A stretch of 64,000 bases of DNA, taken from NCBI GenBank assembly GCA_010015805.1, contig ML978121.1, forward strand, positions 1,674,001 through 1,738,000, written 5' to 3'. Positions 1,346 to 22,118 of the stretch are shown here, piece after piece (position 1 is the stretch's first letter; each line of letters begins with the position of its first letter). The notes under the pieces are model-generated. The model was given only the letters and a program-made list of their open reading frames with translations, was not told the origin of the DNA and searched no databases. Both the position numbers and the translations under genes were made by a program. Origin of the DNA: Rhizodiscina lignyota (taxonomy: Eukaryota; Ascomycota; Dothideomycetes; Aulographales; Rhizodiscinaceae).

Positions 1346-2470
1346 TCACGACATATCAATCACAAGTTTTCCGCCAGCGCCTTTATGGTAGTCTTCCACC
1401 AGTTCATTGAGCTTTGCCAGCGGATAGGTTCTCTTCACAGCTTTGACCTGGTGCTCCGCGGCGAATTTCAGCATTTCTCGCAAAAGCCTGTTGCTTCCAA
1501 CCAAACTGCCTTCAAAAGAGATTTGCCGAAACACGATGTCTCTTGAGGATATGTTGAAACCCTTCTCTGGGAATGAAACAACGATACACTTTCCACGATT
1601 GCGAAGTAGCTTGACAGCGTAGTCGAAAGCTTGCTGACTTTCGGGCAAGATGATGACAGCATCGAGACCCATTTCACTCCTTTCGGTCTTTCCCATTTCA
1701 CGACCAAGCTCTTGCACCACGCTCTCTGGATCTTCAGTTCTGGCGTCTATCAGCTTCGAGCCAGTGTTTAGAGACATTGCCAGTTCGAGTGGCTTGTCAG
1801 CAGCATCGATGCCGAAGACTTTGAGGCCCATCTTCGTCGCAAATTGCAGGCCTAGATGACCCAAACCGCCACCACAGCCCGATATTCCCACACTCTGTCC
1901 TGGCTTGAGGTTACACTTTATTAGTGCCGAATATATTGTGACGCCAGCGCACATAAGCGGAGCGACATCGACACAGTCCAAGCCCTGGGGTATTGGCGCC
2001 ACCTGCCTTGCATCGACGACCGCGTACTCTCGAAAACCGCCGGGTCCGCTCACTCCATTGTTAGCTGACTTTGGACAATAGACGGAATAGCCTGCTGCAT
2101 CACTATATGGGGTGCTCTCGTCAAGGCACTCAGCACAGGCCCCACAGGGGTGAAAGGCCCGGCCGGGGACTCCCAATCTCGTGCCTGGAGGGAACTGTTT
2201 CGCGGTTTCCGAAGCATTGGAAGGCAGATACACCACGCGGCCTGCGAATTCGTGACATCCCACGTGCGGGAATGATGCTGGGTTTGGAGGCATAAGCCCG
2301 GCGGCAAGAACGGCGTCTGTGTGACAGTAGCTCGCAGCGTCTACTTTGATAAGAATGTCGTACGGCGATGAACATGTTGGCACTTCTGTTTCCCTGAAAT
2401 TGTATGGTTGGTTGAATGCGTCAAGGAATTGCGCCTTCATGATGCGCGGTGGTTCTTCTGTAGCCGCCAT
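1346..2470 (-). CDS. Zinc-dependent alcohol dehydrogenase (MDR superfamily)
   Basis: Single exon, 374 aa from the ATG at 2470. The frame stays open upstream but has no earlier ATG, and a second Met lies ten residues in. The GroES-like domain carries catalytic zinc residues Cys49 (SYCHTD) and His73-Glu74 (GCHE). The structural-zinc lobe begins CGACAEC (Cys109, 112, 115), but the next Cys (132) is 16 residues on instead of the usual 7, so the lobe has an insertion. A Rossmann fold follows, with a glycine-rich SGCGGGLGHLG loop, consistent with NAD(P)-dependent oxidation of a primary or secondary alcohol. Fungal cytosolic ADHs of this type are about 350 aa. Substrate cannot be read from sequence. 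It sits beside a hydroxyacid dehydrogenase and a lactonase, suggesting use in catabolism of a small molecule. Confidence 0.9.
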   Translation of the reverse strand: MAATEEPPRIMKAQFLDAFNQPYNFRETEVPTCSSPYDILIKVDAASYCHTDAVLAAGLMPPNPASFPHVGCHEFAGRVVYLPSNASETAKQFPPGTRLGVPGRAFHPCGACAECLDESTPYSDAAGYSVYCPKSANNGVSGPGGFREYAVVDARQVAPIPQGLDCVDVAPLMCAGVTIYSALIKCNLKPGQSVGISGCGGGLGHLGLQFATKMGLKVFGIDAADKPLELAMSLNTGSKLIDARTEDPESVVQELGREMGKTERSEMGLDAVIILPESQQAFDYAVKLLRNRGKCIVVSFPEKGFNISSRDIVFRQISFEGSLVGSNRLLREMLKFAAEHQVKAVKRTYPLAKLNELVEDYHKGAGGKLVIDMS

Positions 2471-3133
2471 TGCCTGAGTGGTGTTACGAATCGTGAAGGA
2501 GATAATGCACAGATGTCGGGCCAAATACTCGCGGTGCAAAATTGACGGAGTAGGAGTTTTACGTCGCTAACCGCGCTGCGCCGAACGTTAAAAAGCGATC
2601 ATGTTGATTTTGATAGCAACGTTCTGATTTGGGAGGTGTGTCTTCCCGGCGGCGGGAGTATTCCCATGGCTTGCAAGCATCCGATGTCGGACGGTGAGTC
2701 GCGAGAATGTTGTTCTTTTCGTATCGCGACTTAGATTTTAAAGATCACACAGATTTCATAATGCCCTCTACAGGCTCTATCAGAGGTATTCATTCAGCCT
2801 TTTTGCAACCCCTTTGTGCTGACGATGCCGCTAGCGTCATAGCCCACGGTGTATATCAGGATTTTCTCTTCTTTCACAGATTTTCCCTTCTTTCATAGAT
2901 TTTCTCTCTTTCAATTAATTTGTTCAGGGCACTCCTGGGTCTTCGTTTGTTGGGTGCTTGAGCCTTGACAGGTGGGAGAGTGAATGTGGAGATGGACAGG
3001 ACACGGAGGTGAAGAGACGGGATATTACAGCTCCTCTACCTTCAGCTGCTGGAATTTCACCACTCACGAACGGTTACAGACTCTAGGGACCCTTCGAACA
3101 AGGACCGATGATTTGGGAATACATTATTTGAGC
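2471..3133. other. Intergenic, promoter of the alcohol dehydrogenase
   Basis: About 660 bases upstream of the ADH start and downstream of the next gene's stop. Apart from the three-copy pyrimidine repeat at 2860-2915, nothing identifiable. Confidence 0.5.
2860..2915. repeat. Three tandem copies of a 19-bp pyrimidine-rich unit
   Basis: Units start at 2860, 2879 and 2898, each resembling GATTTTCTCTTCTTTCACA; the third has lost one base. All are strongly pyrimidine-rich on the plus strand. The array lies about 390 bp upstream of the ADH start, so it may be promoter-associated, or it may be simple slippage. Confidence 0.8.
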
Positions 3134-4304
3134 TTACTGCCACCCTCCACCAGGTTTCTTCACACTTTCGTTCAGCCATTTATATACGACTCTAGCGTCC
3201 TTCCCAGCGTATCTCGGATCAGCTGACGCCTCCTCGAACGCCTCCATCGTCGGTTTATCCAGAATGTGCCTTGCACCAACCATCTCGGCCAGATCAGTCC
3301 CCATCTGAAGCACCTTCTTGCACAGTTCTATCCGAAACCCACCCTCATAGTTACGACTAGCTGGCGCATTCGGGTGGATCCCAGGGACCGGATTCGAGTT
3401 GGATGTTATCCAGGTTTGGCCGCCGGACGAATTAATCACATCGGTTAGGAGCTTAAGATCCAGGCCCATCTTGTCTCCGATATTCAATGCCTCAGAGGAA
3501 GCAAGACTGACGACTGCGGAGATGTAGTTATTTATCACCTTGAAAGCAGTGCCAGCACCGACGTCTCCGCAGAGAAAGATATTGTCCGAACGTCCCATGT
3601 GAGACAAGACTGCCTTGATTTCGGGAAAAACCTCCTTCCTCGTCGACCCAACCATCAGACAGAGACTACCAGCCTCTGCTCCCATTGGGCCTCCAGACAC
3701 GGGGGAGTCAATGAAGGTCAGGCGCATTCCTGTCGGTAGTTTGAATTCCGCTTCTTCGACAGCTTTACTGACTTCCAAAATTGTGGCGACTTCAATCGTC
3801 CCGCATTCCATCAGGATCTTTTTCTTGGAGCCAGAACTCATCGCTTTCACTGCACCAGCAATAATACCAGTCTTCGGATCTAGGTATACTGCTTTGACGG
3901 CTGGGCTGTCAGGAAGCATAGTGATGACCATATCCTAAAGTGAGCGTAAGCAGATGCCCCATCTCAACAGCGTTGAGGTGAATATACCGCGGCTTGAGCG
4001 GCCTCAAATCCATTCTCAACGACGTCGATTTCGCCTTTGCCTTTCATTTGTGACTGATATTTTGAGATTGCATCTTTTGATATGTCGCAAATGACGATCT
4101 TGTACGAAGAATCAATCTTGGAGCGGAGATTCACTGCCATGCGGTATCCCATGACACCAAGGCCTACGAAACACCATGTTAATCGGATATTCTCAAGCGC
4201 AGGTGTACAACAACTTCTAAATGACCGTGATCCAACACTGAACTTTCTCGGAGGGCCAAATGGTTCTTACCAATGAAGGCAATGGTTTTAGCCGGGGTAG
4301 CCAT
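3134..4304 (-). CDS. 3-Hydroxyisobutyrate dehydrogenase-like beta-hydroxyacid dehydrogenase
   Basis: Three exons: 4304-4271, 4163-3988 and 3934-3134; 336 aa. Splicing rebuilds the N-terminal NAD-binding loop: exon 1 ends ...KTIAFIG and exon 2 begins LGVMGYRMAVNL, giving GLGVMG. The second junction restores AAQAADMVITMLP, as expected for the family. The substrate-binding signature DSPVSGGPMGAEAG and the catalytic-lysine region GTAFKVINNYIS are present, followed by the helical C-terminal dimerisation domain. The family oxidises beta-hydroxyacids such as 3-hydroxyisobutyrate (valine breakdown, mitochondrial) or related acids. The start here is short, with no obvious long mitochondrial presequence, so a cytosolic paralogue acting on another hydroxyacid is possible. 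It lies 416 bp from the lactonase gene on the same strand; a lactonase would yield a hydroxyacid, a plausible substrate. Confidence 0.92.
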
Positions 4305-4720
4305 CTTGAGTAAGGCGATCTGTGATCAGTCTATACGTCTTCAAGATTCACACACTCCTTTGGGAATGAGGATTGAAGTGTCGTCTGCATCTTGCATGTC
4401 TGCTCTGGGGTACTCCACTCCAAGGGAAGCGAAGTTGCCGTCCATGTCACGGGAATGGCAAACAACAACCCCGCACTCACAATGACCCATTATGAGAGCC
4501 GAGTATTGACACCGAGGAATCGCCCAATTTTACAGACTCACGAACTGGTTACATTCCGGTACAAGATTCCCGGAAGGTGCTGTTATATGCTTTCTGAACG
4601 CGGTGATCATCCGATTGGGCAGGATGAAGCTGATATTGATTGATGAGATACGTGCAGGACAATTGGATGGAGGCTGGAGTTTCTCAAATGTATTCAATTC
4701 ATATTTTATTTCCATACGCT
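4305..4720. other. Intergenic, promoter of the hydroxyacid dehydrogenase
   Basis: Separates the dehydrogenase start from the stop codon of the same-strand lactonase gene. Only unsupported short frames. Confidence 0.5.
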
Positions 4721-5731
4721 TCATATTGTCCCTGGGAAGAACTTATCCTTATTTTTCTCCCTCCACCCAATGTCATGAGCTACAATGACTTGAACTTGAG
4801 CGTTCTTCCCCAGGAAAGACTTGATCTGGTCGAGCGTCTTCGTTGCAGCTTGGGTGTCCATGTGCACAGTTCGTTGCCCACCGTGACCGTCATCATATGT
4901 GGCAATTCCCTTCTCTCCTTTCAGAATCCGCACATCATGACAGCAGTCGCCTCCCAAATACACCCAGCGGTCCTTGCCAATTCTGGCGAGCAGATTGACG
5001 TGGCCAATGATGTGGCCAGGGGCGTCAATGACCCAGACTGAACCGTCGCCGAAGAGGTCCAAAGCGTTCGGGAACCCTGCGAAAGACTGCCAGGTGTGGC
5101 CAGTCCGCCTCCCAGAAGCGATACTCTGGTCTCCCGAGCTCGTCGGTGGAAACTCAAACGTAGCCACCGTCGGAAGCAAGTCCTTATTGAATATCTCCGC
5201 TGGGTAGTGAGACCCTGCTCCGTTTTGGAGAACATGCAAAGTCCCACTGCCGACGAAGAATTTTGCGGTTTTATAGTCGCTTGGTGTACCGACATGATCC
5301 CAATGAACGTGGCTTAGAATGACAATGTCGATGTCAACATCCGGCTCCAGACCACCTGCTTGAAGACTTCCAGCACAATCGGGTTCCGTGATCACCGGTT
5401 GTCGGTTTGCAATGTGACTCGCCATTGCTGGCGTGTACTGTGTCAAGTCGCGCTTGAGGCCAAGGTCGAAAATTAGATTCATAGTGTCGCGGCCATTGTT
5501 CCCAAGGCTCGGATGCTGGATCAAGAAGCAAAGGGAAGGCACTGTAGCCCTCCTCTCTGGGTCCGCATCCGTGATGAAGAGATACTCCGGAAGAGTCAAA
5601 TGGCCGCCATCGAGCGCTGAGATGGTGACATATTTCTCATCTTCTTTCGCTGAAGGCAGCGAGTCGCCAGACTGAGATCCATTACCTGCCATGTTGACCC
5701 TTGGGTCCGCAGCTCCGGCGTTGTTGAGCAT
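4721..5731 (-). CDS. Metallo-beta-lactamase-fold hydrolase, lactonase-like
   Basis: Single exon, 336 aa, start taken at the ATG at 5731. The frame stays open to 5929, but a TATA-like run (TATGTATATATTAGAT, 5753-5768) lies just upstream of 5731, and the extra 66 residues look non-coding. The key motif is SHVHWDHVG (HxHxDH dinuclear-zinc site). Further expected ligands are visible: APGHIIGH after a WVIDAPG strand, the YLGGDCCHD aspartate, and AHDIGW near the C-terminus. This is the layout of AHL-lactonase-like and fungal gamma-lactamase/lactonase members. It should open a lactone or lactam ring to the hydroxy- or amino-acid; the actual substrate is unknown. It is divergent from the carboxymuconolactone-decarboxylase gene across 421 bp, so joint control is likely. 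Confidence 0.88.
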   Translation of the reverse strand: MLNNAGAADPRVNMAGNGSQSGDSLPSAKEDEKYVTISALDGGHLTLPEYLFITDADPERRATVPSLCFLIQHPSLGNNGRDTMNLIFDLGLKRDLTQYTPAMASHIANRQPVITEPDCAGSLQAGGLEPDVDIDIVILSHVHWDHVGTPSDYKTAKFFVGSGTLHVLQNGAGSHYPAEIFNKDLLPTVATFEFPPTSSGDQSIASGRRTGHTWQSFAGFPNALDLFGDGSVWVIDAPGHIIGHVNLLARIGKDRWVYLGGDCCHDVRILKGEKGIATYDDGHGGQRTVHMDTQAATKTLDQIKSFLGKNAQVQVIVAHDIGWREKNKDKFFPGTI

Positions 5732-6152
5732 TATTGACTCCGCGTGCGGAGCTATGTATATATTAGATAAACGGCCCGAAGGTACCTTTGTGACTTTTGA
5801 TGCAACTTTATGTGCCGTTGTAAGAAACAAGACGCGCCCGTATCGTGATTCGCTGTTAAGTCCGCTAAGTACAAAAGTGGCTAAAGAAGTGCAGCCCGCT
5901 AGCCTTGAGTCACGTGATGGTCCGTGCACGTTAGATGCGCCTCACCACATCCTGCCATGAAGTCTGTTCCTTGCAGAATGGGCCCGACTGCGGAGCCAAA
6001 GCCGACAAGGGGATGGCTCGCGGGGAAGCCGTCAGCTTAAAGGGATCGATACAACCGACACGTACCGAAGTGATTTATGAGTCTAAGGACGCTTGTGAGA
6101 GACGGGACACGCCAATTCAGAAACCCGCGTATTCGCCCCGTTCAAAATAAGA
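5732..6152. promoter_or_regulatory. Divergent promoter between lactonase and decarboxylase genes
   Basis: This 421-bp gap is bounded by two start codons on opposite strands. A TATA-like run lies near 5753-5768 for the minus-strand gene. A perfect 8-bp palindrome TCACGTGA (5910-5917, an E-box core CACGTG) lies close to the middle. Shared regulation is inferred from position only. Confidence 0.6.
5910..5917. promoter_or_regulatory. E-box palindrome TCACGTGA
   Basis: CACGTG cores are bound by basic helix-loop-helix factors (Cbf1/Pho4 class) in fungi. A single copy in a divergent promoter is suggestive only. Confidence 0.4.
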
Positions 6153-7001
6153 ATGGCATCATCAAGCGAGCTGAAGCAGCAATTTGAGGCCGAGCTCGGC
6201 AAAGAAGCTTGGAATGAAGGTTGGGAAGCAATGCTGAGATTCAGTCCGGAGGCATTCAAGACCAGTCTCGAACTGCATGCCGTTCCGAAGCGAAAGCAGC
6301 ATCTATCTCGAAAGATACAAGCTCTCCTAGCTTTGTCCGTAGATGCTTCGGCGACACATCTCTACGTTCCCGGGATCCAGGAGAAGGTCAAAGCAGCTCT
6401 CAGAGCCGGGGCAAGCGTCGCCGAAATCACTGAGGTAATTGAGTGCACATCAACATTGGGTGTTCATGCTTGCAACATAGGCGTTCCTTTACTTGTGGAA
6501 GTCATGAGAGAGGAGGGAGTTTACGATATCCATCCAGCTGCAGGACAGATGGACGAGAAAAAGGAGAAACTCAAGGAAGAATTTACGAGAAACAGAGGCT
6601 ACTGGCATACCTTTTGGGAGGACTTCTTGAAGCTGGATCCGGAATTTTTTGAAGCGTATATGAACTTTTCAAGCGTGCCTTGGGTAAAGGATGTCAATGG
6701 CGATGGAAAGGGCGGAGGAGTATTAGAGCCGAAGGTGAGAATCGCTTGTACAATGCCTCAGTTTGCCTCTAACGACGTGGTACAGGTCAAAGAGCTTATA
6801 TATTGCGCGTTCGATGTTGCTGCTACTCACCTGTATCAGCCGGGACTCAAGCTTCACATGCGAAACGCTCTTCGATACGGAGCTTCACCAGAGGAGATCA
6901 TGGAGGTCCTCGAAATTGCTACGGCGCTCAGTTTGCACACCGAAGAAACGGCATTTCCGATTCTTGCTCAGTGTGTAGATGACAATGCAGGCAAGCAATG
7001 A
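6153..7001 (+). CDS. Tandem carboxymuconolactone decarboxylase (CMD)/AhpD-like protein
   Basis: Single exon, 282 aa. Two copies of the all-helical CMD fold are visible. The first is at about residues 35-115, with SVDASATHLYVPGIQEKV and a later GVHACN. The second is at about residues 200-275, with AFDVAATHLYQPGLKLHM, GASPEEIMEVLE and SLHTEE. The repeated ATHLY-x-PG segment shows the internal duplication. Bacterial CMDs decarboxylate gamma-carboxymuconolactone, while AhpD members are CxxC-dependent peroxidases. No CxxC is present here, so a peroxidase role is unlikely. Whether it decarboxylates a lactone is inference, but pairing with a divergent lactonase fits successive steps on a lactone intermediate. 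The start is the first ATG, closely following an AAAATAAGA leader. Confidence 0.88.
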   Translation: MASSSELKQQFEAELGKEAWNEGWEAMLRFSPEAFKTSLELHAVPKRKQHLSRKIQALLALSVDASATHLYVPGIQEKVKAALRAGASVAEITEVIECTSTLGVHACNIGVPLLVEVMREEGVYDIHPAAGQMDEKKEKLKEEFTRNRGYWHTFWEDFLKLDPEFFEAYMNFSSVPWVKDVNGDGKGGGVLEPKVRIACTMPQFASNDVVQVKELIYCAFDVAATHLYQPGLKLHMRNALRYGASPEEIMEVLEIATALSLHTEETAFPILAQCVDDNAGKQ

Positions 7002-7044
7002 TTAACTAGATACCTTTCAATGCTATTCCTTGGATGGCCTCATT

Positions 7045-8042
7045 CTACTCCTCTTTGGTGAAGCCGAATGACTTATCCTCGCCCCATGTTGGATTCTCAA
7101 TTGGCTTATTCACCCACCACTTCCTCAAGAAGTCCTCGATCGACACAGGCCTGACTTCCGGGCACAACTGGTTCAATGTCGGCTTCATCTCGAAGCCACC
7201 TTTTGCGATGCAAATCCTGGCCTGGTTATAGAACCTCTTCTGTGGGACCTCGGCCATCTTTTCCATGTCCTCAATTGTGTTCGTTCTGACGAGCATCTTC
7301 TCACCGCCCCTGACCTTCTCGATCATCTTCACTACGTCGATGTAGCTCGCGTCGTCCCCACTCATCATACTCTCAGCTGGCCATTTCTCGAGATCAAGGC
7401 TCGCCACGACGAAGCGACAAATATCATTGATCTCCGTGTACGTGACCTTGGTTGTTCCGTCTCCTGGCAAGTCTGCTGTGCCGGCTGTCATGTTGATCAC
7501 AAAGTTCCACGGACGAAGACCAGCCAATGCCTCATCGTTGTGAGGCGCCAGCAGGTTCATGAACAGGCCACAAGAGTAACGTGTGTATTCCGTACCACTA
7601 CGTTGAACAGCCTCCCAAGCAGGGATCTTAAAGCGGTACTAAAATGCAGAACAAGTTAGCACAACTCTAGACTTCATCTTTACACCACAAGATAACCGAC
7701 CAGATCAACGCCTTCATAGGAGCCATGTGCAAATTCAGAGGGCGCAAACCGCTTGACCCCCGCAACACGAGCAGCTTCGATCACTGCGAGTTGGGGATCA
7801 GATTCAGTGAGAACAGCGCCGGCGCCCATACAGCTGATAACAGTATGAACACCAGTGAGGACTTGAACAAGCTCTCCCTGGTTGCTGTAGTCTACAACGC
7901 AGACATTGACACCAAGCGCAGAGAGCTCCGGCTTTGCTGACCGTGAGAGAAGTGTGATGGTATGCTTCTTTGACTTTACGAGATGATGGAGAAGGGTAAG
8001 GCCAAACCCGGAGCTTGCACCAGCAAGTGCTACGTGTACCAT
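7045..8042 (-). CDS. NmrA/isoflavone-reductase-like NAD(P)-binding protein
   Basis: Two exons, about 8042-7701 and 7638-7045, giving about 311 aa. The start at 8042 (MVHVALAGASSGFG) places the NAD(P)-binding loop at the N-terminus as the family requires; the upstream in-frame extension has no family character. Later features are ISCMGAGA, the catalytic-type segment KRFAPSEFAHGSYEG, and TRYSCGLFMN after the junction. The acceptor TTTTAG is clear. The donor is ambiguous: GTCGGT at 7700 gives GVDLYRFKIPAWE, the best family match, while a weaker GTGTAA donor would add four residues. The family includes reductases of phenolic compounds and NAD(P)-sensing regulators. The gene is convergent with the CMD gene, 43 bp apart. 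Confidence 0.85.
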
Positions 8043-10038: not shown

Positions 10039-12110
10039 ATGGAGGACGAAACGAAAGACGAGAAACACTTCGAGGAATTCACGGTCGAAGATGAATCGCC
10101 GGAAGCTATTGAGTTCAAGAAGAAGGAGCGAAAGCTCGTCAGAAAATTGGACACCTTTGTAGCTCCGGTGGTAATGATGCTCATGCTCATTTCCTACCTT
10201 GACCGCGGTAATATAGGATTTGCAGCAACCCAAGGCATGAATGAAGACCTTAATTTGAAAGGATCTGAATACAACGTATGTCATCTCTCACTTTCAACTG
10301 TTCAGTCTAGACTAATACTGGCACAGATTGCGGTATCATTATTTTACATCACGTATATTCTTGCTGAGGTGTGTATTCCGACAACATTCTTGCGCGAAAG
10401 TACTGAACCTAGGCAGTTTCCGGCTTCACTTCTTGTGAAGAGGCTTAGCTTCAAGCGCGTTATGCCCGCAATCGCCTTCGGCTGGGGCCTCATTTGCATG
10501 GTAAGCAAATCGAGCTCCTTTCTCCAAACTAGGACAAATGCTCACTCGTATTTAGTGCGTCGGCTTCGTTAAGGGCTTCGCGTCCCTAGTTGTACTCCGA
10601 TTACTACTTGGTTTCTTCGAGGGTTGTCTTTTCCCAGCTCTGACTTTGTTCCTCGCCAATTGGTATAAGCGTGAAGAACTCGGTGAGCGTGGGCCACAGT
10701 AAACAGAAACTCAAATATACTAACACTAGAAAGGTCTAAGAGTATCATATCTCTTCATTGCATCAGCCTTATCCGGAGCTTTCGGAGGTCTCATCGCACT
10801 CGGTATCTTGTTCATGAACGGGACGGCTGGCTATGCAGGTTGGCGATGGTATGGCTAATTGCAACTACCGAAGGAGCTAGTTTCCAGCGAGCGAACAGTC
10901 TGCGCATCCACCTTGTTAAAGTTACCCCTGGTACTTCCAAGAAGCTTCCTCGTATTGGTGAAGTTGCATTCGAGGTTGTTAGGGCGTAGCTTGCATAGCG
11001 TACCTTGGACGATTTGCTTCTCCTTATTACGTAAAAGAGACGCTGTTGCAGGTCTTGTTCGCTCGCCGGAATCTAGCTCCTTCATCTTATCATATCGAAG
11101 AAACTAACAGTGAACAGGCTCTATATCATCGAGGGCATCATCACCATTGCCTTCTCGTTTATTTGCTACTTTCTTGTGCCGGAAAATTACTCCACGGCGT
11201 ATTTCCTTAACGCAGAAGAGAAGGCTATCATGAAGCACCGCTCAGAGCTGATGGAGTCGTATAGTGGTGGCGACGGCAAATATACGAAGAAGGATATCAA
11301 GCTGGCGTTGACGGATATCAAGACTTGGCTCCACGGTATCCTGCAGGTGGCCGTTGTCACAATCCTGTACGGGTTTGGCACATTTTTGCCTGTGATCCTG
11401 AAATTCGGCTTCCATTACTCCACTTTACAGTCTCAGTATCTTGTCATTCCAGGTGAGTCTATTAAACTCCTAAAAGCTTTGCTATACACTCACAATTCGA
11501 CAGTTAACCTTTGGGGCGCACTATCATACCTCGTCGGCGCAATCGTACGTATCTCTTTAGGACTTTCGCTGTTTCATTCCACCCCCCCAAAACCAACCAA
11601 CCCCCTTTCTCCCCGGGAATAATCCTGCTGATTCCTTCATAGCTGGCCGATAGATACAATGCAAGATGGATAACTCAAATGATCTGCGCGCCCATCGGAA
11701 TAGCGGGTTATGCGATTCTGCTCAATCTGGACAAGGTCTCTCCCGGAGTCCAATATTTCGCCACTTATTTAATCTCTACGGCCTGCTACCTCTGCACGGG
11801 GACGAATATTGCGTGGCACTCGATGAATACCGCTCCGGATGGAAAACGCGCTGCTGCACTCGGTGTCCAACTGACGCTCACAAACATCGGAGGTGTCATC
11901 AGCGGACAGATATATCGCGACCCTCCAAATTACACTCTTGGACATGCCTGGTCTTTAGGATCTCTCGGCTTTGCCTGGTGCGGGTGGTGGATCTTATTGT
12001 TCATCTACAAGAGGCGTGACGCTTGGAAGGCAAAGGCGCGGGCGGAGGGAGTTGTTATCCCATCCGAAGACTTTTCAGACCGTTCTCCAGAGTTCAAGTA
12101 TCAGTACTAG
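10039..12110 (+). CDS. MFS transporter, anion:cation symporter (Dal5/TNA1-like)
   Basis: Eight exons: 10039-10275, 10327-10368, 10417-10500, 10556-10682, 10734-10848, 11118-11452, 11504-11544, 11643-12110; about 482 aa. All phases join. A polar N-terminus leads to LISYLDRGNIGFAA, the TM1 signature of the allantoate/nicotinate/pantothenate permease family. Also present are LLGFFEGCLFPALTLFL (TM4, motif F/YEGxxFP), SALSGAFGGLIALGI, the long central loop, and a C-terminal half with GTNIAWHSMN and LTNIGGVISGQIY. These plasma-membrane symporters import organic anions. Intron 5 (10849-11117, 269 nt) is four to five times longer than the others because it contains an inverted-repeat element. Location next to catabolic genes suggests import of a carboxylate substrate. 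Confidence 0.9.
10870..11083. mobile_element. Inverted-repeat (MITE-like) element inside an intron
   Basis: Arms at 10870-10897 (GAAGGAGCTAGTTTCC...) and 11056-11083 are inverted copies matching at 26 of 28 positions, enclosing 158 bp. The element lies wholly within intron 5 of the transporter, and normal intron ends remain outside it (donor GTATGG at 10849, branch-like ACTAAC and acceptor AACAG at 11117). No clear target duplication was found, so the family is unknown. A stable hairpin of other origin is the alternative. Confidence 0.65.
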
Positions 12111-17401: not shown

Positions 17402-19345
17402 ATGTCACCGCATCTGTTAGACACGCTGACAGACTCCGCTTCGAACCCAAATATCCAGAATGGCTTTCCGTCGAATATCGGCTCCGGGGTCAACAGCGAA
17501 ACTGTACACATCAGCAAAGTACAGCCGGTAGCTCCCGTGCATAGCGAAGCAAAGTTTGAGCTTGAAGATCACCCAATCGATGAACCCCGAAGCTTAAACG
17601 TACGTCCAATCCTAAACAACTGTTTAAGCGATTCTTCTAAGATTCAATAGGTTGCAGTAATAGGCGCAGGGATAGCTGGGATTACAGCGGGAGTGCTGTT
17701 ACCAGTTAAGGTACCGGGTCTTCGATTGACCATATTCGAGAAAAACCCAGACGTTGTAAGACCACCAATATGACCCATTCTACTTCAAGTTGCTCATGGA
17801 TTACAGTCAGGAACGTGGTTAGAGAATTCATACCCAGGTGTAAGGTGTGATATTCCGGCACATGTTTATCAATCGACATTTTCGCCAAACACGCAGTGGA
17901 CAGAAGAGTACGCCCAAGGCCATGAAATCCGAGACTACTGGCAAGGCGTTGCGCGCAAGTACGACGTATACAAATATCTGCGGTTGAACTCGCATGTCAC
18001 ACTCGCCGAATGGGACCCCGAGAGCGCTCAGTGGTTGCTCAGTGTTAAAGATTTGAAAAAAGACTCCACCGACACGACATCCGTGGAAAGGTTCGATGTC
18101 GTCATTACAGCCATTGGACGTTTCAATGCGTGGAAGCTCCCAGATATCCCCGGTATAGAGACTTACGAAGGCCATCTCCGCCATTCAAGCAACTGGGATA
18201 AATCATTCGATCCAAATGGCAAGAGAGTTGCTGTCATAGGCAATGGAGCTAGCGGTATCCAAGTTGTTCCGAGCCTGCAGCCGATCGTAAAGCATCTTGA
18301 CCACTACGCCCGGAGTCCAACCTGGATCGCAGGCTCCTTTGCCGGAGAGGGAGAGGGGCGCACATTGGAGCCAAAGCTGTACCCCGTCGAAAAACTGCAA
18401 TCTTTCGAGGATCCAGAGGCATATTATAAGTTCCGAAAGGAGTTTGAAGCCAAGTTTTACCGCCGTTTTGAAACCATCTTCAAAAACACAGAGGGGAATG
18501 AGAAACTGCGAACAGATTTCAAAACTGCAATGACGGAACGTCTGAAGGAGAAGCCTGAGCTTCTTGAGCAGATCCTCCCGGATTTCTCACCCAACTGCAG
18601 GAGGCTGACGCCTGGTCCGGGATATTTAGAGGCACTGACGAAGGATAATGTGAGCTTCATCCGTACTCCAATCGCCAGGTTCACCAAGGAAGGCATCGTG
18701 ACGAACGATGACACAGAGCGAAAAGTCGACGCCGTCATCTGTTCGACTGGAGCAAATAGGGATATGCTGCCGCCTTTCCCTATACGAGTACCGGGCGTGG
18801 GAAGCATCCAGGATGCATGGAGTCCGTCACCGTACACCTACTTGGGCGTTGCAACACCCTCATTTCCAAATCTCCTCTCCGTCCAAGGGCCTAACGCCAC
18901 CGGACACAGTGGGACTGTGCCGAACCAGCTCGAAACTCAGGTGACATACATCGCACAGCTCCTGCGAAAAGTGACGCAACAGGGCATCAAGACTTTCTCC
19001 CCCTCCAAAGCTGCTACAGATGATTTCGTCGCGTACTGCGACGCGTTCTTTGCACGCACCGTCTGGTCTGAGTACTGCAGTTCGTGGGCAAACGGCGGAA
19101 AACCTGGAGGAAGGGTGCAAGGTCATTGGCCGGGAAGCGCATCGCATCTGAACATCGTGCGAAGGAGCCCTCGGTGGGAGGACTGGGAATGGACGTACCG
19201 CACCCCCTCAGGCAATCGCTTTGCGTACTTTGGCAATGGTTGGACGGCGAAAGAGTTACAGGAGGATTCGGACCTGACACCATATTTGAAGAAGCCAGAT
19301 GAGATTGACTTGCGGATTTATCATGAGGAGTGGTTCACTGTTTAA
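17402..19345 (+). CDS. Baeyer-Villiger-type flavin monooxygenase
   Basis: Three exons: 17402-17599, 17651-17755, 17807-19345; 613 aa. The start at 17402 has a good context (CTCAAAATGTC); an in-frame ATG 51 bases upstream is possible. The FAD-binding loop VAVIGAGIAGITAG is rebuilt at the first junction (about residues 67-80). SGTWLENSYPGVRCDIPAHVY follows, then a variant Baeyer-Villiger fingerprint YEGHLRHSSNWD (about residue 220; consensus FxGxxxHxxxWP). The NADPH loop is AVIGNGASGIQ (about residue 245). Such enzymes insert oxygen into ketones to form esters or lactones using NADPH and O2. The product class matches the lactonase 12 kb away, but linkage is only suggestive. The roughly 65-residue N-terminal extension before the Rossmann fold is typical of fungal members. 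Confidence 0.92.
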
Positions 19346-20056: not shown

Positions 20057-22118
20057 TCCTAAAATTTAACCACGAATTTCAAAGTACGATTTCTTAATAA
20101 CTATAAGAGATAATTACTTTAAATTAAAACTAGTGATAGATTATATTATTACGTATAAGTTTTATTAAGAAAACCTTTTTAGAAAGTACTTTATTAGCTT
20201 TATTTTACGCTCTAATCGTGTTTAGGTCGCTTTAAGTACTAGAATAGTATTTACCTTATAAAAAATCTTAACCTCTTCTAGAATCTGCTAATACTTATTC
20301 TTCTACTTCTTTAACTTCTTATTAGCTGCTTTAGCTTTAGATTAAAGCTATTTATTAGCCTATTTTTCTATATAAGCCTCCTAAAGTTATATTTTTTTCT
20401 AAGCCGTCTCCTCTACCTTTTATAACCTCGCTACCGCTAGCTATTCTCGCCTTTAATTAGCTAAGCGCTCTTTTTCTTATTTAGCTTCTTATTTACGCTT
20501 CTTTTCCTTCTATTTCTATACTTCCTATTATTATTAATCTTTCTCTTCCTATATAATTTACTCTTATACTAGCTAAACCTTTAAAGGTAAGTATATAATC
20601 GCTTTATAGTTAGATTTATTACGAAGTCGATTAAATAGTAGCTTACCTTAGTAGCCTTTAAGCTTTTCTACGCCTAGTACCTATTTTAAACTATCTCTTT
20701 TAATTCTAAGCTAGTAGTTTTTAAAGACTAAATACTTAATATAGTTAGTAATCTTTATAATATTCTCTTAAATTAATTTATTAATAGTCTCTTTTAGAAC
20801 TATATAAACCTTCCTTTAATTAGATACTAAGAGTACTAAACTATTTAAAGTACTTAAGGCTAGCTAGGATATAGGTCTAACTTATAAGAGTACTATTTTA
20901 GGATTAAAGGGCTAGATACTAGCCTATTAGAACCTTAATTTAATAATATTTTTAGTAAATACTAATTAAAAAGCCGGCTAAAAGAGTAAGAAGAACTACT
21001 ACTTACTAAGGGAGGTTAGTCCTTAAGTCTTTATCTACTAGGTATCTAGATTTATACTATAATAATACCTAATACTTAGAAAGTAGGTAAGATCTAGTAG
21101 CTAGAGTCTATAGGTTAAATAAGGTAGAAATACTACTATAAATACTTTATACTTATTATACTAATCTAGAAAGCGTATATTAATATAGCTATTATAGCTA
21201 TTAACGATTAGAAGCTAATAATTACGACCGTTATATACTTTCTTCTTACTAGCTAGGTCGAAAACTATTATTAGCTACTATATTATAAGGTCCTTATTAG
21301 TCTAGCCGCTTAGCGTTACTATAAAGTAGTAGTTATACTCTTTAAGATCGAAATTATAAAGCTAGCTATCTAGAATATTACCTAGAGCGCCTAGGTAGAT
21401 TAGAGTTAGTTATAATATAGTACTATCTATATAGTAGCTAGTAATAAGAGTAATCTAGTTATAAGAGCTATCTTAGCTTATACTAATAAGTCGACGTTTC
21501 TAAGCTTCTTTTTAGGTGAATATACGCTTTATCTTATATAAGATACCTAGTAGAAAGCCCTTTTTATCTATATTATAATAGTTTTCAGCTCTAATATTAT
21601 ATTACTAGATTTTCGATTATAGCTATTAAGTTAGTAACGAAGTAAGGTAGTATAGTAATACTTACTAGGTTAAAATATAGCTTATACTTATATATATTAT
21701 CTACCTTCTTTTAGCTTTAATCTATACCTACTAGGTAGCTTAATAGTAACTCTTTTTTATACTATTAAATAAAGCGAGAAGCCTACTTTTTTCCTAGCTC
21801 TTTCTTAGCTAAATTACTAGTAAAGCGCTAGATTATTAGCTATATAGGAGGTATACCTTACTTAGTAAGTATATCGATATAGTTTATAAGGTCTTTTTCT
21901 TATTAATACGAGAGTAATGACTAGTATTCTTGTAAACGGCCTTTTAGCTTCGATATGCCTTTATAGCAGCGTAGAAGTATACTAGGTATAACCCTATACT
22001 TTTTAGCTATTACCCTATAAAGAGGAGGATCTTAGCTTTTCAAATCTTTAAGCGCGAGCTCAATTACGCTCATATTAGTAGAGTTATTAAATTTTGAAAT
22101 TCATTGATTTCCGGTGCG

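Follow-up and report, generated by a model that had tools for sequence, protein, structure and literature searches.

Described Systems Closest to the Locus

The described systems closest to the gene group analyzed here are the FDB1 cluster of Fusarium, the bxd cluster of Microbacterium, and the protocatechuate branch of Aspergillus niger. The gene group is a run of five consecutive enzyme genes at positions 1346-8042 of a 64,000-nucleotide stretch (the window) from the ascomycete Rhizodiscina lignyota (assembly GCA_010015805.1, contig ML978121.1, positions 1,674,001 to 1,738,000). The genes encode a zinc-dependent alcohol dehydrogenase (ADH), a beta-hydroxyacid dehydrogenase (HADH), a lactonase-like hydrolase of the metallo-beta-lactamase (MBL) fold, a tandem carboxymuconolactone-decarboxylase-family protein (CMD), and an NmrA-like reductase. 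The five genes look like one breakdown pathway because the MBL/HADH/CMD core is also found together in many bacteria, and it is highly probable that these three enzymes work in one pathway.

FDB1, in the gene lists of the portions of PMC4726666 and PMC10512309 consulted, is composed of two amidases, a dienelactone hydrolase, an amino-acid transporter, an FAD enzyme, and a transcription factor, together with one MBL carrying HxHxDHxG and one NmrA-like gene. The last two are shared with R. lignyota, where the motif reads HVHWDHVG. No CMD, HADH, or ADH appears in these lists, and none of the five R. lignyota proteins has a Pfam match to an amidase or a dienelactone hydrolase, which sets the locus apart from FDB1. 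A preliminary description of the window had stated that the set does not match FDB1, and this is borne out, as only the MBL and NmrA classes are common to both lists. MBL1 of FDB1 has been likened to the lactonase AiiB (PMC5610705, in the part consulted).

The bxd cluster starts with a protein of the acyl-homoserine lactone (AHL) lactonase family and has an NAD(P)-dependent oxidoreductase, two points of likeness to the R. lignyota locus. BxdA, a bacterial member of the AHL lactonase family, opens MBOA. Unlike that locus, the cluster includes an aldehyde dehydrogenase and a VOC protein; the word "carboxymuconolactone" is absent from the main text as consulted (PMC11297187). The protocatechuate branch of A. 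niger is similar in its lactone and decarboxylation chemistry and in its induced CMD-like gene, but different in its genes. The 3-carboxymuconolactone step is performed by ChdA, an alpha/beta hydrolase, and not by a CMD protein. According to the sections consulted, the CMD-like gene rises 240-fold on protocatechuate, and its deletion has no growth effect on the compounds tested (PMC10406623).

Genes of the CMD family and for lactonase-like MBL proteins are widespread, and few of them have a known substrate. Among the papers listed, mostly outside subscription journals and judged by title and the start of the abstract, none describes the MBL/HADH/CMD set, although single mentions may have been missed; no name for the bacterial set was found.

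Organization of the Locus

The preliminary description had placed five enzyme genes within 6.7 kb around a divergent MBL/CMD pair. All five are present and intact there, with reading frames free of defects (Table 1), and the proposed classes are supported. MBL and CMD lie on opposite strands with 421 bp between them, a region that, from the gene models, likely holds the promoters of both genes. CGG...CCG-like motifs inspected in the promoters were uninformative.

The second CMD repeat is interrupted by an in-frame stretch of 51 nt (6735-6785) with the borders GTGAGA...CAG. Because of these intron-like borders and the disruption of the repeat, the stretch is probably an intron, giving a protein of 265 rather than 283 amino acids. 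The donor site of the NmrA intron is uncertain.

Table 1. Features of the R. lignyota window, in window coordinates; the five-gene locus is listed first.
Feature	Position	Strand	Details
ADH, zinc-dependent alcohol dehydrogenase	1346-2470	-	one exon, 374 aa
HADH, beta-hydroxyacid dehydrogenase, 3-hydroxyisobutyrate dehydrogenase kind	3134-4304	-	two introns (107 + 53 nt), 336 aa
MBL, MBL-fold lactonase-like hydrolase	4721-5731	-	one exon, 336 aa
MBL/CMD divergent intergenic region	5732-6152	.	421 bp, from gene models
CMD, tandem carboxymuconolactone-decarboxylase-family protein	6153-7001	+	two CMD repeats, 265 aa after intron removal
NmrA-like NAD(P)-binding reductase	7045-8042	-	one intron (47 nt), 316 aa
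Major facilitator superfamily (MFS) transporter	10039-12110	+	PF07690 150.7 bits on spliced model
Repeat in MFS intron	10869-11083		about 215 bp, inside the 269-nt fifth intron (10849-11117)
Baeyer-Villiger-type flavin monooxygenase	~17402-19345	+	main exon 17774-19345; PF00743 42.8 bits
AT-rich tract	20060-20500		starts just past 20.0 kb

The Encoded Proteins

The proteins were named using Pfam and NCBIfam cut-offs, sequence matches to solved chains, and motif inspection. ADH, HADH, CMD, and NmrA score above the Pfam cut-off, and MBL scores slightly below it (20.9 bits against 22.7). NCBIfam returns only sub-threshold matches for ADH, HADH, MBL, and CMD, and none for NmrA. All five proteins are of known superfamilies, and none reaches the level that would assign it a named function.

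MBL possesses a complete set of metal-ligand motifs, HVHWDH, PGHIIGH, GGDCCH, and VAHD, following the pattern HxHxDH, PGHxxGH, GGD, AHD. It scores 51.4 bits against the AttM AHL lactonase model (NF045700, cut-off 390) and 49.4 bits against 4-pyridoxolactonase (NF047925, cut-off 325), far short of either. Four solved chains match at E <= 0.001: two AHL lactonases, 4-pyridoxolactonase, and, weakly, GOB-18. Foldseek also gives 4-pyridoxolactonase and AHL lactonases as best matches, from a low-confidence model (mean pLDDT 54.6). The residue at position Asp+3 is His, where the solved relatives have Tyr. The nearest matches of MBL are lactonases, and its motifs and solved relatives point to a putative lactonase.

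HADH is assigned to the beta-hydroxyacid dehydrogenase superfamily by PF03446 (105.4 bits), PF14833 (73.1 bits), and three intact active-site motifs, GxGxMG, DxPVSGG, and GxGxxxKxxNN. Enzymes of this superfamily oxidize a hydroxyl close to a carboxylate. The solved relative is the 3-hydroxyisobutyrate dehydrogenase 2i9p (E=3.5e-42). The first NCBIfam match, TIGR01692 for the same enzyme, reaches 205.6 bits against a cut-off of 291.6; threonate dehydrogenase and related models also match below cut-off. The NAD-binding fold begins at residue 7, and no leader is seen by eye.

CMD matches PF02627 (54.1 bits) and, over most of its length, the solved chain 2q0t (E=6.5e-76). This chain, listed under the putative name of a gamma-carboxymuconolactone decarboxylase subunit, is of the same tandem CMD family. 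ATHLYxPG is kept in both repeats. AhpD-type CMD peroxidases have a CxxC motif; since CMD has none, an AhpD-like peroxidase role was rejected. The PcaC model for 4-carboxymuconolactone decarboxylase (TIGR02425) gives 26.0 bits, well under its cut-off of 155.7. Carboxymuconolactone, which the preliminary description had suggested as an assay substrate, is unlikely because of this score and because ChdA performs the step in A. niger, and it was set aside as the leading candidate.

ADH matches PF08240 (63.6 bits) and PF00107 (62.8 bits), both above cut-off, and carries YCHTD, GCHE, and PLMCAG. Its nearest solved chain is the alcohol dehydrogenase 1llu (E=1e-53), and several alcohol dehydrogenase models of NCBIfam match below threshold. 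NmrA matches PF05368 (64.8 bits) and PF13460 (47.5 bits). Relatives are numerous in the genome, with 48 matching places for ADH and 12 for NmrA. The two ADH paralogues at 63% and 52% identity are not near any HADH, MBL, or CMD place. Adjacency is the sole basis for including ADH and NmrA in the cluster.

Co-Location within the Fungal Genome

The searched genome is 33.4 Mb in 29 contigs, and its genes and introns are of fungal type. Window included, 14 HADH, 13 MBL, and 8 CMD places were taken, with a pairing distance of 5 kb. Outside the window, HADH lies within this distance of MBL on contigs C18 and C5 and of CMD on contig C9. These three pairs compare with 0.099 expected (0.0467 + 0.0272 + 0.0251), and the two HADH-MBL pairs with 0.047. 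In 200,000 uniform placements, a test that ignores gene density and family duplication, at least three pairs arise with a frequency of 0.0002 and at least two HADH-MBL pairs with a frequency of 0.0011. C9 was not counted as a full trio, its nearby MBL being of the BLACT_WH kind.

The MBL on C18 is the closest paralogue of the window MBL, at 51% identity. The surrounding 91-105 kb region (L028, L029) is a second candidate catabolic cluster around HADH and MBL. Neighbors include beta and alpha subunits resembling succinyl-CoA ligase, an Ldh_2 dehydrogenase, an MFS gene, a Zn2Cys6 regulator, and a SLAC1 transporter. On C5 (1672-1690 kb; L032, L033), a distant MBL lies beside HADH, an NAD(P)-binding reductase, two flavin enzymes, two P450 pieces, and an MFS gene. 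This MBL is 26% identical by tblastn (E=4e-20), and the piece scanned has no Pfam match.

Bacterial Gene Neighborhoods

A search with an alignment of the window CMD and its paralogue on C10 gave 33 bacterial loci, which were scanned over flanks of up to 8 kb with the MBL of one of them (L040) as the MBL query. A lactonase-like MBL gene lies in the flank of every one of the 23 actinobacterial loci (L040-L061, L070). Two HADH genes are present in 18 of them and a GntR relative in 14. The order MBL, HADH, cupin, single CMD, HADH, tandem CMD is observed in 11 of the 23, sometimes with GntR in between. Five lack a flank HADH; the three that were extended (L053, L056, L070) all have an HADH pair 12-16 kb from the tandem CMD, along with short-chain dehydrogenase/reductase (SDR) genes, an HpcH/HpaI aldolase, and a flavin monooxygenase, and two of them have a second MBL.

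HADH and MBL genes were counted, as lower bounds, in 11 of the 23 actinobacterial genomes. Each has at least 3-10 HADH genes and at least 1-3 MBL genes of this kind, and fewer than 0.025 HADH and 0.006 MBL are expected per 16.7 kb. The closeness of MBL, HADH, and CMD in actinobacteria is far from chance because there are so few HADH and MBL genes per genome. By co-location in the fungus itself and by these bacterial neighborhoods, the MBL/HADH/CMD grouping is more than chance.

The bacterial and fungal sets share MBL, HADH, and an orthologous tandem CMD within a few kb, and several bacterial sets add an MFS gene and a further type of dehydrogenase. They differ in order and strands, and the bacterial MBL and HADH are distant relatives of the fungal ones. 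Bacterial sets have a second HADH, a single CMD, a cupin, and GntR (often also SDR and MFS). The fungal five-gene core has none of the first four, for which the wider window was not searched one by one.

In the streptosporangial regions L073, L074, and L075, about 17 kb holds a Baeyer-Villiger-like monooxygenase, an HpcH/HpaI aldolase, SDRs, an extra CMD-like protein, MBL, and an HADH pair.

Plasmid Records

Plasmid records, as annotated by others, extend the set beyond actinobacteria. The fungal CMD matched 34 records, of which six were opened (H1, H2, H4, H10, H12, H14). The full set is present on the Pseudomonadota plasmids pACRY02 of Acidiphilium and pHS1 of Sodalis, labeled as a lactonase family protein, two NAD(P)-dependent oxidoreductases, single and tandem CMD, cupin, MFS, and GntR. 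Two Paraburkholderia stretches, unannotated and read by tblastn, have HADH genes, a cupin, single and tandem CMD, MFS, and GntR, with no MBL in the flank. In Natronosalvus, a tandem CMD has an HADH relative about 8 kb away and no MBL, and in Tsukamurella the match is to a short CMD gene that the other genes of the set do not accompany.

The bacterial MBL matched 269 records. Among 25 listed (H37-H61), nine were opened, chosen for different genera. A CMD is annotated within 9 kb of MBL in four, Rhodococcus, Rhizobium tropici, Pseudoroseomonas, and Marinobacter, always of single-domain length. An NAD(P)-dependent oxidoreductase, likely an HADH, is found near MBL in five, going by the label alone in Rhodococcus, Pseudoroseomonas, Marinobacter, Qingshengfaniella, and Agrobacterium. 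In the first three of these genera, the oxidoreductase occurs together with a lactonase and a single-domain CMD. A zinc ADH and such an MBL form a pair in R. tropici, with a CMD 4 kb on and an SDR, and in enzyme classes this mix comes closest to the fungal one. One AttM-type lactonase locus was read for contrast, and it lacks a CMD.

In Sulfitobacter (L086), the bacterial MBL lies beside a 3-oxo-tetronate kinase and an aldolase, a hint of sugar-acid lactones.

Descent of the Components

The bacterial counterparts of CMD are 41-55% identical to the fungal protein, with 55% over 243 aa to that of Actinomycetospora (L040), and the sequences clearly show one and the same CMD gene on both sides. 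A tree of 33 rows (31 bacterial, the window CMD, and the C10 paralogue; the partial L071 and L072 were left out) places the window protein on a long branch and in no well-supported group. The bacterial MBL has the same metal ligands as the fungal MBL and shares His at Asp+3, but has GGHxPG in place of PGHxxGH. The fungal MBL and HADH come from different branches than the bacterial ones, and for this reason the fungal and bacterial sets were probably assembled separately around a shared CMD. Transfer of the whole cluster from bacteria was considered and is unsupported, given the distance of MBL and HADH and the unplaced window protein in the CMD tree.

Proposed Pathway and Alternatives

In the proposed scheme, MBL would open a lactone ring to give a hydroxy acid, whose hydroxyl close to the carboxylate would be oxidized by HADH. 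The resulting beta-keto acid is of a kind that decarboxylases naturally accept, and loss of CO2 from it would be sped by the tandem CMD, a putative decarboxylase. This role is proposed for CMD because the set offers no other decarboxylase candidate. Flanking alcohol, ketone, or aldehyde steps, before or after, would fall to ADH and the NmrA-like reductase, and the MFS transporter at 10 kb may import the substrate. Both the reaction order and co-expression of the genes are what we infer. This reaction scheme, at about even odds, is the leading explanation; under it, the locus would be a small fungal catabolic cluster for a lactone or for a compound converted to one.

The preliminary description had proposed a catabolic cluster around the lactonase and CMD. 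Recurrent co-location supports this for MBL, HADH, and CMD; ADH and NmrA are candidate members by adjacency. It had also suggested looking for conserved order across distant species; in bacteria, the gene combination is kept, and the exact order and strands are not. That such a set is kept in actinobacteria, recurs on plasmids of other bacteria, and is built from different homologues in a fungus speaks well, on genetic grounds, for a single pathway, and the scheme offers a concrete, testable reaction order. A broader reading is tentative and leans toward doubtful: lactonase, beta-hydroxyacid dehydrogenase, and tandem CMD acting as a beta-keto-acid decarboxylase would form an undescribed lactone pathway in fungi and bacteria, with only CMD shared by close descent, perhaps through transfer out of bacteria, and each kingdom recruiting the remaining enzymes on its own. 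If true, this would provide a first function for the tandem CMD family, the solved member of which is only putatively named, and would be a case of two kingdoms building alike catabolic sets.

Several observations weigh against a common pathway of this kind. Besides the simplifications of the placement test, 10 of the 13 HADH places elsewhere in the genome have no MBL or CMD within 5 kb. Neighbors of this kind are also missing around the second tandem CMD gene (C10) and the third-best MBL (C9, 43%), where 20 and 30 kb were read. Among the 10 proteobacterial loci (L062-L069, L071, L072; some on short contigs), no such MBL and one weak HADH were seen. Four of the six opened CMD plasmid records have no MBL in the flank, and of the nine MBL plasmid loci, five have no CMD and four no NAD(P)-dependent oxidoreductase label within 9 kb. 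Identity between fungal and bacterial proteins is 27-32% for HADH and 16-21% for MBL, which leaves the fungal MBL outside the bacterial MBL subfamily. Only CMD is, on sequence, clearly the same gene across kingdoms, and the substrates may differ.

The many relatives of ADH and NmrA (48 and 12 places) would fit chance neighbors with no common pathway, yet co-location of MBL, HADH, and CMD in the fungal genome and in bacteria makes this very unlikely. Within a shared pathway, the lactone could be made on site. ADH would convert an alcohol to a ketone, the monooxygenase at 17.4 kb would convert the ketone to a lactone, and MBL would open it, the substrate being a cyclic alcohol or ketone of terpenoid or alicyclic type. 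ADH, monooxygenase, lactonase, and dehydrogenase form a classic sequence. Each of the three extended streptosporangial loci also has a flavin monooxygenase within its MBL/HADH/CMD region, and 2 of the 10 proteobacterial loci (L064, L068) have one close to the tandem CMD. This Baeyer-Villiger route is nonetheless unlikely: the window monooxygenase lies 9 kb off beyond other genes and is 27-29% identical to the bacterial ones, and none of the 23 actinobacterial loci has one in the 8-kb flank. Catabolism of a sugar-acid lactone is no likelier than that route. ADH would take a sugar to its lactone, MBL would open it, HADH would oxidize the aldonate to a keto acid, and decarboxylation would be spontaneous or due to CMD. 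The sub-threshold matches of HADH to threonate dehydrogenase and related models, and the Sulfitobacter neighborhood, fit such a substrate, whereas the five core genes include no kinase or aldolase and ADH is nearest to ordinary alcohol dehydrogenases.

The remaining alternatives draw on the described systems. The enzymes might detoxify a plant or microbial lactam or lactone, as FDB1 does, rather than serve food use. The MBL and NmrA-like genes of FDB1, the resemblance of MBL1 to AiiB (PMC5610705), and the opening of MBOA by BxdA (PMC11297187) are consistent with this in the parts of those sources consulted. With no amidase or dienelactone hydrolase among the five proteins, and no CMD or HADH in the FDB1 lists consulted, detoxification is rather improbable; lactam hydrolysis as in FDB1 is possible and not specifically supported. 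A side branch of the protocatechuate/beta-ketoadipate pathway, with CMD and MBL in the roles of bacterial PcaC and PcaD, is extremely unlikely. The family name, the 26-bit PcaC match, and the 240-fold induction in A. niger suggest it, but that match is far from 155.7, the A. niger deletion has no growth phenotype and ChdA does the step (PMC10406623, sections consulted), and the five genes include no dioxygenase or muconate cyclase.

Other Features of the Window

The MFS transporter at 10 kb is, by eye, presumably allantoate-permease-like. C18 has a related MFS gene (33% over 119 aa) close to its MBL-HADH pair. The transporter may be an uptake gene of the cluster. The repeat inside its fifth intron has at least 41 further genomic places longer than 100 bases at 71-83% identity. 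Its ends match on opposite strands over 28-33 bases, resembling a miniature inverted-repeat transposable element.

The monooxygenase at 17.4 kb, 9 kb from the core, is a possible lactone-forming enzyme. It carries the fingerprint motif YxGxxxHxxxWD and scores far below the cut-off of the neopentalenolactone synthase model. The 27-29% identity given above is to monooxygenases of three bacterial clusters. No secondary-metabolite backbone enzyme was noticed among the listed open reading frames of the window, a search aimed at one not having been made. The AT-rich tract downstream of the monooxygenase is, by eye, perhaps a decayed repeat.

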